DNA of 34,409 nucleotides from an uncultured Endomicrobiia bacterium (GTDB lineage Bacteria; Elusimicrobiota; Endomicrobiia; DTEH01), in NCBI GenBank assembly GCA_937928765.1, contig CALFVX010000015.1, positions 1 through 34,409 of the forward strand. Reading direction: 5' to 3'. Below the pieces are notes generated by a model. It worked only from the letters and a program-made list of their open reading frames with translations. It was not told the DNA's origin and ran no database searches. Positions 547-34,409 of the stretch are shown here, one piece after another. How positions within the stretch are numbered: the first letter of the stretch is position 1; each line of letters starts with the position of its first letter. The position numbers were made by a program, and so were the translations under genes.

Positions 547-2205
547 CTATGAATTTAATATTTCTTTTGCAATTTCATTTTCAGCTTCTGTTATTAAAGC
601 AATACCAGTAAATTGTTCTGTCTCACGATTACAAGAATATATATCTTCTCTTGAAATTAAAGAAACAGAAAACTTTCTTGCACCAGCCATAAGTTGTTGT
701 AATCCCGCGGCAAGTTTGTCACATAAAGTATATAAAGCAATAGCGCCAAAAGGAATGTTTTTCATTTCCTCTTTACCAACTTTTTTCTCAACTTCGTAAT
801 AACAAGCAAAAATTTCTTCAGGTTTTGACCCAAACTGTGAAACTGACGCAGGTAGTTTGTCCCAGTTACCGTTCACTTTTTGTTTATTTTCTGGTTTAAG
901 CACACCTTCTATGTTTGCACCTAAAAATCCTGGTATCATCAACGCCCTACCCATACATACAAGTTTCACATATGGAGCGCCTAATGCTAACGCTTTAAAT
1001 ATATGATCTTCTCTTGCAAACCCGCCTGCAAACGACATATCTACAACTTTTTTGTTTTTCTTAGACTTTTTATATTTTTTCTCAAGTATAGTTGCATATT
1101 CATATGCTTTTGAATGTAAATATATTGATGGTACACCCCAGGTTTCCATCATATTCCACGGACTCATCCCTGTCCCACCACCTGAACCGTCTATAGTAAG
1201 AAGGTCCAACTCAGCTTCAGAAGCAAACTTTATTGCCATTGCTAAAGCTTCCATACCATACGAACCTGTCTTAAGAGTAATTCGTTTAAACCCAAGTTTT
1301 CTTAACCTTTCAACTTCTTTCATAAACGCATCTCTTACTTGTTTCCAACTTGATAACGAGGTATATCCTATTCTACTATGTCTTGCAATACTTTTTATTG
1401 CACCGGATTTAAACGCTTCTTCTACTTCGGGTTTATCCGGGTCAGGGTCTACTATATACCCACGTTTCTTAAGAAGTTTCGCATATTCAAGGTCAGTAAC
1501 TTGTATTTCGCCGCCGATATCTTTTGCACCTTGACCCCATTTTAATTCTATTATAACTTTATCACCGTATTTGTCAATAATATATTCTGCAACACCGTTT
1601 CTTGTATCTTCTACATTTATTTGGACAATTATTGCACCGTACCCATTAAAGTATTTAAGATAAGTTTGTATTCGTCGGTCAAGTTCTGGCGCTTTCACAA
1701 CTTTACCGTTTTTAAATTCAGCTTTTTTATCTACACCTACAACATTTTCACCTACAACAATAGGGAAACCTACCAACGCTGCACCTACTGCAAACCCTTC
1801 CCAATATTTTTGAGCAATAAAAGTTGATCCTAACGCACCTGTCATTATAGGAAGTGCTGATTTTGTTTTAACTTTATTACCAAACTCTGTCTCAAGGTTC
1901 ACATTCGGAAAAATACAGTCATCTTCAGAATTAGACAACCCTTTAGGTAACCCTTTTGCACCATACACCCTTCCGTTAATTCTTAAAGAGTTATAACTTA
2001 CTCCAAGATGGATAGTATTTGCACTTCCTGCAGTAATAAAACCAAAATCGCGTGGGTACAACATTTTTCGTCCTCTTAACGAAGAAAGCCAGGTTTCACA
2101 TTTACCTGCACAATCTGACATACACAATGTACATAGGCCTGATTCACATGGGTTACCACGGTTCACTGTACCTAACGCATCGTTTGTTTTTCTAAATTCT
2201 ATCAT
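547..2205 (-). CDS. Stand-alone FMN-binding glutamate synthase-like protein with N-terminal cysteine cluster
   Basis: A 552-residue protein of the glutamate synthase central/FMN-domain family (GltB-like). It would make glutamate from 2-oxoglutarate and ammonia or use a related substrate. Seen: a cysteine-rich N-terminus (C20, C25, C28, C32, C36) that could bind an iron-sulfur cluster; a glycine-rich segment near 223-233 (GQGAKDIGGEI), which matches the family pattern; TIDGSGGGTG at 337-346, typical of the FMN barrel; and FAGGFARED near 392-400. Missing compared with classic GltB: the N-terminal class-II glutaminase domain, so it cannot by itself draw ammonia from glutamine. No GltD partner lies nearby. 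It starts at an ATG 10 bases after GGAGG. It has its own promoter-like sequence and a leader with hairpins that look like ANTAR targets, and sits just downstream of a GAF-ANTAR regulator. Family call is firm; the exact reaction and electron donor are inferred. Confidence 0.85.
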   Translation of the reverse strand: MIEFRKTNDALGTVNRGNPCESGLCTLCMSDCAGKCETWLSSLRGRKMLYPRDFGFITAGSANTIHLGVSYNSLRINGRVYGAKGLPKGLSNSEDDCIFPNVNLETEFGNKVKTKSALPIMTGALGSTFIAQKYWEGFAVGAALVGFPIVVGENVVGVDKKAEFKNGKVVKAPELDRRIQTYLKYFNGYGAIIVQINVEDTRNGVAEYIIDKYGDKVIIELKWGQGAKDIGGEIQVTDLEYAKLLKKRGYIVDPDPDKPEVEEAFKSGAIKSIARHSRIGYTSLSSWKQVRDAFMKEVERLRKLGFKRITLKTGSYGMEALAMAIKFASEAELDLLTIDGSGGGTGMSPWNMMETWGVPSIYLHSKAYEYATILEKKYKKSKKNKKVVDMSFAGGFAREDHIFKALALGAPYVKLVCMGRALMIPGFLGANIEGVLKPENKQKVNGNWDKLPASVSQFGSKPEEIFACYYEVEKKVGKEEMKNIPFGAIALYTLCDKLAAGLQQLMAGARKFSVSLISREDIYSCNRETEQFTGIALITEAENEIAKEILNS

Positions 2206-2220
2206 AGCATTATAACCTCC
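2202..2220 (-). promoter_or_regulatory. Strong ribosome site with a two-codon ORF overlapping the gene start
   Basis: On the minus strand GGAGG (2216-2220) is followed five bases later by ATG (2208-2210). That ATG opens a reading frame of only Met-Leu-stop (ATG CTA TGA). Its TGA overlaps the ATG (2203-2205) of the glutamate-synthase-like gene as ATGA. The main start is 10 bases from the Shine-Dalgarno, the mini start 5 bases. The main start is chosen because only it leads into the long frame. Confidence 0.5.
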
Positions 2221-2247
2221 CTAGAAATAAAATAAGTTGTGAAAAAT

Positions 2248-2263
2248 AAACCTTCATTGGTTT
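2248..2263 (-). promoter_or_regulatory. ANTAR-type hexaloop hairpin 3, possibly a terminator
   Basis: Minus-strand RNA: 5-bp stem AAACC/GGTTT closing the six-base loop AATGAA (2253-2258), with A at loop position 1 and G at position 4. It is followed by ATTTTT (2242-2247), so it could double as a weak intrinsic terminator. Known ANTAR switches place the second bound hairpin so that it overlaps a terminator; whether that applies here is inference. Confidence 0.55.
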
Positions 2264-2284
2264 GGATTTGCTTTTTTAGACAAG

Positions 2285-2296
2285 TCCTTCGTTGGA
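2285..2296 (-). promoter_or_regulatory. ANTAR-type hexaloop hairpin 2
   Basis: Minus-strand RNA: short stem TCC/GGA closing the loop AACGAA (2288-2293), with A1 and G4. The stem is only three base pairs, so alone it would be unstable. It lies about 6 bases downstream of hairpin 1, in keeping with the closely spaced double hairpins known as ANTAR targets. Confidence 0.55.
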
Positions 2297-2302
2297 TAAA
2301 AT

Positions 2303-2325
2303 TTTACCCACTTCTTTGTGGTAAA
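2303..2325 (-). promoter_or_regulatory. ANTAR-type hexaloop hairpin 1
   Basis: Minus-strand RNA: stem CCAC/GTGG extended, past one bulged G (2307), by ATTT/AAAT pairing, closing the loop AAAGAA (2312-2317). Loop position 1 is A and position 4 is G, the conserved bases of ANTAR-recognised hexaloops. It starts almost at the predicted transcription start of the leader and is the most stable of the three hairpins. Confidence 0.65.
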
Positions 2326-2333
2326 TTTTGGAT

Positions 2334-2362
2334 AAATTACAATAATTTAAAAAATTTGTCAA
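2334..2362 (-). promoter_or_regulatory. Promoter of the glutamate-synthase-like gene
   Basis: Minus strand: a consensus -35 TTGACA (2357-2362), a 17-bp spacer, and a weak -10 TAATTT (2334-2339). Transcription would start near 2327, just before hairpin 1, giving a leader of about 120 bases. The -10 matches consensus at only three positions, but the perfect -35 and the spacing support it. Confidence 0.5.
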
Positions 2363-2378: not shown

Positions 2379-3092
2379 TTATTCTTTGTCTTCAAAAGCA
2401 ATAATTACAAACTTTGCAACTTCTTTAATCGGTTTTTGCAGGTCCATACTTTTCTTTTGTAAAAACCTATGTGCTTGTTCTTCAGAAAATCCTCGGTGCT
2501 TAATAAGTAACGCTTTTGCACGGTCTACAAGTTTCTTTGTTTCCAAAACATCTTTAGTAACAACAAGTTCTTCTACCAATCTTGTATTTTCTATTGCTAA
2601 CGCTGCTTGGTTCGCTATTGTTTGTAAAACATTTATTTCGTCAGGCGAAAATTCATATTGGGTAGTAGTATAAATATTAAGCACGCCTATAACTTTGTCT
2701 TTTATTACCATTGGAACTGCTAACATTGAACACAACTTTTCTTCTTTTGCTATTTCAGGATACATATACCTCGGGTCAGTTTTTACATCTAAAACAAATA
2801 TAGGTTTTTTTTCTTTTACTGCAAGACCACTTATGCTACTGCCAACTTTTACTGGCGGTTTAGTTTTATATTTTTCTGACAAACTCTGTGTTGCTTTTAT
2901 TATAAGTTCGTTTTTCTTTTCATCTAAAAGCATTATAGAACATATTTTTGAACCAAACATATCTGCTGTAAGTTTTACAATTTGTGTTAAAATATCGTCT
3001 AAAAATTTTGAAGATACAATTGTTGAACTTATAAGAGAAAGTGTTTCAAGTCCTTTAATCAACTTTTTACTTCTTCTCCGTTGTTGTTTCAT
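2379..3092 (-). CDS. GAF-ANTAR RNA-binding regulator
   Basis: A 237-residue cytosolic regulator. Residues about 10-170 form a GAF sensor domain (GSSISGLAVKEKKP, then SMLAVPMVIKDKVIGVLNIY). Residues about 180-235 form an ANTAR domain: LVDRAKALL, a helix with GFSEEQAHRFL, then KPIKEVAKFVI, matching the three-helix family pattern. ANTAR proteins bind paired RNA hairpins with six-base loops and prevent transcription termination, often on nitrogen genes. It starts in a four-base ATGA overlap with nadE, so the two are translationally coupled. Hairpins of exactly the expected loop type lie 55-130 bases downstream, before the glutamate-synthase-like gene, which is the likely target. The GAF ligand is unknown. 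There is no receiver domain or kinase beside it, so control is more likely by a small molecule than by phosphorylation. Confidence 0.9.
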   Translation of the reverse strand: MKQQRRRSKKLIKGLETLSLISSTIVSSKFLDDILTQIVKLTADMFGSKICSIMLLDEKKNELIIKATQSLSEKYKTKPPVKVGSSISGLAVKEKKPIFVLDVKTDPRYMYPEIAKEEKLCSMLAVPMVIKDKVIGVLNIYTTTQYEFSPDEINVLQTIANQAALAIENTRLVEELVVTKDVLETKKLVDRAKALLIKHRGFSEEQAHRFLQKKSMDLQKPIKEVAKFVIIAFEDKE

Positions 3093-33891: not shown

Positions 33892-34409
33892 AATTGTATA
33901 TTTTCGAATGCACCAATTTTGTTAAAAGTTTTTAATAATAAACTTAATATTCTTAATCTATTTAAAGCAATTTCTATTTTTTCGTCAAATACTAATACTT
34001 TATCGAAAAATCTATCTATTATATACTTTTTGTCTAAAAACAAATTTATTATAAATTCAAATCTTTGTTCTAAAAAAAATTTATCAACCTCATCATTTAA
34101 AGTCATTACTGTTTCATAAAAAGATTTTTCTTCATCTAAAACAAACAAATTAGTTTTTACTTCTCCTTCAATTTCAAATTTCTTATTTTTTGCTTGAATT
34201 AAAATATTATTAATTCTTTTGTATAGCTCTATAAATTTCACAAAATCATCTTTTGGCCTAAAAATTTTTATAACATTTAAGATTTGTAATTTTATATTAA
34301 CCTCGCCATTGAAATTGTAAAGAACTGTCCTTATTTCATCAATCTTATATCCCTCTTGAAGAAGTAAATTTTCAAACCTTTGAGATAAAAAATTTATTAC
34401 TTTATATTT
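33888..34409 (-). CDS. glyS: Glycyl-tRNA synthetase beta subunit, C-terminal part (cut by window edge)
   Basis: The minus-strand frame is open from the right edge to the stop at 33888, so the gene begins outside the window and about 173 residues are visible. They match the GlyS C-terminal anticodon-binding (DALR-type) region: FLSQRFENLLLQEGY, VKFIELYKRINNIL, FIINLFLDKKYIIDRFFDKV, and a final NRLRILSLLLKTF. The GTG at 34241 is internal and should not be taken as the start. It pairs with GlyQ, which would be upstream. It is the first visible member of the leftward operon running through the flippase-like gene, exbD and etfBA. Confidence 0.9.
   Translation of the reverse strand, partial: KYKVINFLSQRFENLLLQEGYKIDEIRTVLYNFNGEVNIKLQILNVIKIFRPKDDFVKFIELYKRINNILIQAKNKKFEIEGEVKTNLFVLDEEKSFYETVMTLNDEVDKFFLEQRFEFIINLFLDKKYIIDRFFDKVLVFDEKIEIALNRLRILSLLLKTFNKIGAFENIQL

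Follow-up and report, generated by a model that had tools for sequence, protein, structure and literature searches.

Introduction

In the eutP leader of Enterococcus faecalis the ANTAR protein EutV, which carries a REC domain, reads two short-stemmed hairpins whose six-base loops keep A1 and G4, and the second of these (P2) overlaps an intrinsic terminator (PMC8934654, PMC3369931). From the EutV structure the minimal target was redefined as one hexaloop, a dimer gripping one hexaloop at once; Met172 is essential, Tyr164 stacks on G4 of the loop, and one extra single hexaloop was noted in EutX RNA (PMC8934654). Binding to a single hexaloop did not explain the presence of two in each target, nor did it tell whether hairpin number and output can differ from the known form. 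ANTAR targets that are devoid of a terminator and lie near ribosome-binding sites are thought to act on translation (PMC3369931; actinobacteria survey PMC8164766).

Dual-hairpin ANTAR targets were described at the glutamate synthase genes of Desulfotomaculum reducens by Ramesh et al. in 2012 (PMC3369931, Fig. 9A). The arrangement studied here had been put forward in a preliminary description as possibly new; because of the 2012 report the setting, in which a glutamate synthase gene follows an ANTAR target, is already known. What differs is the array itself. The searchable papers, few of them from subscription journals, describe dual motifs, and no report of three-hexaloop ANTAR arrays was found among them.

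Results and Discussion

Genetic Setting of the glt Leader

The window, the whole stretch of 34,409 nucleotides analysed, is the start of contig C15 in a 1.54 Mb genome of 47 contigs. The minus-strand gene order is pyrG, nadE, a GAF-ANTAR gene, a gap of 173 bases and a glutamate-synthase-like gene (here glt). The features of this region, in the direction of transcription, are:

2379–3092, minus strand: gene for the GAF-ANTAR protein (237 aa), the presumed hairpin-binding regulator, ending the pyrG-nadE-ANTAR run
2334–2362, minus strand: predicted sigma-70 promoter (TTGACA 2362–2357, 17-nt spacer, TAATTT 2339–2334)
2321–2308, minus strand: hairpin H1, CCAC[AAAGAA]GTGG, loop 2317–2312, stem extending beyond a bulged G
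2296–2285, minus strand: hairpin H2, TCC[AACGAA]GGA, loop 2293–2288, only 3 bp
2263–2248, minus strand: hairpin H3, AAACC[AATGAA]GGTTT, loop 2258–2253, stem of 5 bp
2216–2221, minus strand: Shine-Dalgarno sequence GGGAGG of glt, read from the sequence
547–2205, minus strand: gene for the glutamate-synthase-like (FMN-domain) protein (552 aa), the presumed controlled gene

The product of the upstream gene matched Pfam GAF_2 (3.2e-24) and ANTAR (2.2e-15), the ANTAR domain (PF03861) scoring 56.6 bits against a curated cut-off of 27.3, and a genome-wide search returned it as the sole ANTAR match; its earlier naming as a GAF-ANTAR protein was thus correct. Most of the EutV RNA-contact residues are kept, Met172 among them, while some arginines are replaced and the equivalent of Tyr164 is His, as in AmiR. 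The 552-aa protein matched Pfam Glu_synthase (4.8e-14) over residues 295–415. This upholds the glutamate-synthase-like part of its proposed role in ammonia assimilation, although its relatives are annotated only as 'glutamate synthase-related protein'. The N-terminus of this protein is Cys-rich, and no relative was found among the solved structures searched by sequence.

Judged from the promoter sequence, glt transcription is expected to start near 2327, a few bases 5′ of H1. The promoter was missed by a consensus scanner because its weak −10 box matches only three of six positions. In most of the related leaders a TTGAC box lies about 33–56 nt 5′ of the first hexaloop.

Hexaloop Hairpins in the Window

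The hairpins are present exactly as the preliminary description had them, with loops AAAGAA, AACGAA and AATGAA on the minus strand, and reading of the letters confirmed that all three loops keep A1 and G4 and share A2, A5 and A6. Their stems of 4 (more past the bulge), 3 and 5 bp fall within the published definition of at least 3 bp (PMC3369931), H2 barely so. The loop-to-loop spacing of 24 and 35 nt makes them tandem hairpins, the spacing elsewhere being 20–46 nt.

When the leader was shuffled 3000 times with dinucleotides preserved, a chain of three A1/G4 hexaloops did not occur at all, and a chain of two occurred in 0.2% of the shuffles. Two copies of C[AANGAA]G within 38 nt were found in the whole 1.54 Mb genome only in the glt leader, as two overlapping matches. 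When stems of 3 bp were allowed, this looser rule gave one other three-chain in the 34 kb window, located near 34310–34380 within a coding frame, and for this reason context and conservation matter. The hairpins have been set against chance formation in AT-rich intergenic DNA, for which the short stems (3–5 bp) and the unremarkable stability of the whole leader fold (z 0.28, with the gap folded from the ANTAR stop codon) could be cited; the shuffles, an antisense control, the genome-wide uniqueness of the pattern, conservation and the neighbourhood all oppose it, and such an origin is hardly credible. All three hexaloop hairpins are thus genuine features of the leader.

When the RNA was folded from its expected 5′ end, the predicted pairing probabilities were 0.70 for H1, 0.03 for H2 and 0.92 for H3. 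A long-range helix seen in the raw fold of the gap is probably irrelevant, because it is formed with bases upstream of the expected start site. The near-palindrome GGGTAAAATTTTATCC (window 2309–2294, minus strand) would allow the 3′ half of the H1 stem to base-pair with the 5′ half of the H2 stem; this alternative fold would exclude both hairpins and is not conserved in genome G002. CsrA-type sites were dropped on inspection, the loops being without GGA.

Comparison with the Endomicrobia Family

The leader was compared within its Endomicrobia family among three sequences: the window, its nearest relative by sequence (G004, glt protein identity 98%) and G002 (89%). In G004, H1 is kept as CCCAC/GTGGG and H3 is kept, whereas H2 is broken. 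G002 has three good hairpins, GCTAC[AATGAA]GTAGC, GTCC[AACGGT]GGAC and AAAC[AATGGT]GTTT. Conservation is higher in the hairpin columns than elsewhere in the leader, at 93% versus 82% in G004 and 73% versus 40% in G002. Pairs changed on both sides number three, two in H1 and one in H3, and covariation as high was reached by 18 of 500 shuffles of this small sample. The alignment of the gap in relatives, suggested earlier as a check, was therefore favourable for H1 and H3, with A1 and G4 of the loops kept, and H2 added nothing to it. In G003 the glt leader has two strong hexaloops and a third with 2 bp; in G001 no ANTAR gene was seen, though there the contig breaks off in the glt leader, 27 nt from the gene.

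In the window and in G002 the glt leader carries three hexaloops and has no intrinsic terminator. Triple arrays, likewise terminator-less, also precede glnA in G001, G002 and G003, and the glutamate synthase amidotransferase gene glxB in G001, with all loops AAAGAA. Over 278 kb of family loci, both strands included, every chain of at least three hexaloops falls in the leader of a nitrogen-assimilation gene; since loci overlap, this amounts to seven distinct three-chain sites, the one at G003 glxB having some doubtful members. The claim of three hairpins in a row is thus borne out by the recurrence of such arrays in the family and by the shuffles, with the reservation that H2 is weak and lost in G004.

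The G003 glxB leader has a canonical P2-terminator, and at glnA of less closely related Elusimicrobiota the leaders are of the canonical kind, two hexaloops with a terminator. The occurrence of triple terminator-less leaders beside two-hairpin terminator forms, as at glxB of G001 and G003, amounts to a natural experiment on hairpin number and on the way in which ANTAR proteins could act where a terminator is missing. The presumed reach of ANTAR regulation over glutamate synthase and glutamine synthetase is also widened to Elusimicrobiota.

The window's genome (G000) and G004 are without glxB (no match to the amidotransferase was found in the former) and without the second glnA, and no hexaloops were found in the leader of the remaining glnA of the window's genome. 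For these reasons glt may be the only ANTAR target in that genome.

Wider Relatives and Covariance Model

Hexaloops, taken as A1/G4 loops with at least four Watson-Crick pairs, were counted in the glt leaders of other genomes, 78 in all with the record of G004 among them. There were 55 on the sense strand and 6 on the antisense strand, the shuffle expectation being 5.7 (sd 2.5). In 14 loci, from Desulfobacterota, Margulisbacteria and G004, a GAF-ANTAR gene adjoins glt, and all 14 have at least two hexaloops (Fisher p 8e-9). This enrichment before glt, often beside a GAF-ANTAR gene, sustains the nitrogen part of the proposed cis-encoded nitrogen switch; the window leader is without an intrinsic terminator, and the word switch goes beyond what was observed.

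The distant leaders are mostly of the textbook type, with P1 followed by P2 GAC[AAAGGC]GTC, the 3′ half of which opens a strong terminator, and their dual motifs gave 22 double-change cells, a value that none of 500 shuffles reached. The leaders of Desulfobacterota (L088–L110) share with the window an upstream GAF-ANTAR gene, a promoter, tandem hexaloops and a homologous glt. They differ from it in that P2 is embedded in the strong terminator and in that there are usually two hexaloops; three hexaloops plus a terminator occur in three desulfobacterial loci (L104, L106, L107).

A covariance model of the dual motif (R1) was built solely from sequences outside the window's class. Its best match in the respective genome was the glt leader in G003 (25 bits) and G002 (24 bits), and it found the G011 leader at 19.9 bits. 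The window's leader was not found by R1, and a search of it with Rfam gave no match to an ANTAR model. This check, proposed together with the original claim, hence succeeded for the relatives and failed for the window itself, whose leader is a weak member of the ANTAR targets. Second-rank R1 matches in the window's genome were set aside, being located in coding frames.

Contig C114 of G011 (L155, 17 kb) carries two GAF-ANTAR genes together with glnA and glt, a compact ANTAR-nitrogen cluster.

Terminator, Ribosome Site and Proposed Mechanism

No terminator-like site was found in the window leader, where the best hairpin before a U run has −2.9 kcal/mol, as against −9 to −30 kcal/mol outside the family. 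Eight of the nine family leaders are without an intrinsic terminator, their best hairpins ahead of a U run reaching at most −5.4 kcal/mol, and nearly all leaders outside the family have one; the terminator of G003 glxB exceeds the length limit of the scan and was seen by eye. The leader departs from the canonical dual antiterminator both in having no overlap of P2 with a terminator and in hairpin number, three in the window and G002 and two in G004. Since there is no intrinsic terminator, the mechanism known from textbook ANTAR systems cannot simply be transferred to this leader.

With EutV/eutP the locus shares A1/G4 loops, short stems and mostly the same RNA-contact residues, and differs in the GAF domain of its protein in place of REC, in a third hairpin and in the missing terminator. 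With D. reducens it shares A1/G4 hexaloops in a glutamate synthase leader and a presumed ANTAR reader; there the published target is a dual hairpin, whereas here three hexaloops stand without an intrinsic terminator in a different phylum. In ANTAR RNAs acting at ribosome sites the hairpins lie near or over the site, while the last hairpin of the window ends about 26 nt before it. The difference from known ANTAR targets is the array, three hexaloops and no intrinsic terminator.

Simple masking or release of the Shine-Dalgarno sequence by an alternative fold was rejected, because its predicted accessibility remained unchanged when the hexaloops were forced in folding.

We consider it probable, with some room for doubt, that this leader is a true target RNA of the ANTAR type, through which the neighbouring GAF-ANTAR protein sets glt expression after initiation by an output other than a terminator. 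The points that weigh against this reading are the miss of the window's leader by R1, the weak H2 that is broken in G004, the unchanged accessibility of the ribosome site and the failure to see an ANTAR gene in G001. Transcription of glt from the promoter would begin only a few bases ahead of H1, and with such a start the tandem hexaloops would be the first RNA structures made. With its GAF domain in the right signalling state, the protein encoded next door would bind the hexaloops, ANTAR dimers loading on them one after another and so setting glt expression after transcription initiation. Because the intrinsic terminator is absent, a non-terminator output is proposed, most likely at translation or at what becomes of the leader RNA, or else through Rho-dependent termination; Rho is encoded in the window's genome. 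The element would be a descendant or a sister form of the canonical glt and glnA leaders with P1, P2 and terminator, one in which the terminator is absent and extra hexaloops are present. Here we infer the binding of the ANTAR protein, its signal, the direction and the output step at the glt leader; the direction would, by analogy only, be activation under nitrogen shortage.

More tentatively, and at somewhat less than an even chance in our estimate, the Endomicrobia family as a whole could have remodelled the two-hairpin antiterminator, giving an array of three or four hexaloops that has no terminator, with serial ANTAR dimers controlling a nitrogen-assimilation regulon (glt, glxB, glnA) at translation or leader-RNA fate.

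Alternative Explanations

A functional target consisting of only H1 and H3 (or of H1 and one other hairpin), with H2 a chance look-alike, is unlikely but deserves weight, as G004 retains just H1 and H3 and H2 is hardly ever paired in the predicted fold. Yet G002 has at the aligned place an H2 of 4 bp with G4 kept, the glnA and glxB leaders of the family likewise carry three hexaloops, and the spacing of the H1 and H3 loops (57–59 nt) exceeds the usual 20–46 nt, into which that of H1 and H2 fits. The broken H2 of G004 and the 3 bp of H2 in the window could also be taken as signs of decay in a leader that no longer regulates, left behind after the window's genome and G004 lost their glnA-type and glxB targets; that R1 gives the window leader no score would agree with this. 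Against such degeneration stand an intact ANTAR gene that still adjoins the leader, complete retention of H1 and H3 with conservation above that of the flanking leader, and loops still A1/G4 and nearly identical in sequence, so that we regard a remnant as improbable.

Canonical antitermination, in which two of the hairpins would be P1 and P2 and binding would disrupt a weak AU-rich terminator made of H3 or an overlapping hairpin and a U stretch, is the mode of the well-studied ANTAR systems (PMC3369931, PMC8934654) and is represented in the same family by G003, with its P2-terminator before glxB and possibly before nadE. AUUUUU follows H3 in the window, and in G002 a 6-bp alternative hairpin, AAACAC...GUGUUU, was seen on inspection to overlap H3. 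The window leader, however, has no terminator-like site, the glt leaders of G002 and G003 are also without a terminator, and if H3 were the terminator, loop binding would favour H3 rather than remove it; we hold this mode to be distinctly improbable at glt. The evidence so weighed leaves control of glt through the hexaloop array, with a non-terminator output, as the reading that we prefer.

Minor Observations

In each of the four glt leaders of the family (window 2257–2211, minus strand; L113, L114, L119) the final hexaloop reads AATG, and its AUG opens a frame of 12–17 codons ending just before or across the glt start. This frame may be due to chance, because it has no Shine-Dalgarno sequence and its peptide is unconserved between the window and G004; ANTAR binding might even gate its reading.

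In several loops of the glnA leaders L179, L180, L183 and L185, from other Elusimicrobiota, position 1 is G and G4 is kept, which suggests that the A1 rule is softer than published.

Between groEL and nadE in G003 (L134, about 1501–1580) there is a hexaloop, GAAGAC[AAAGGC]GTCTTT, with an overlapping terminator. Since in the window it is nadE that adjoins the ANTAR gene, this gene too may be under ANTAR control.
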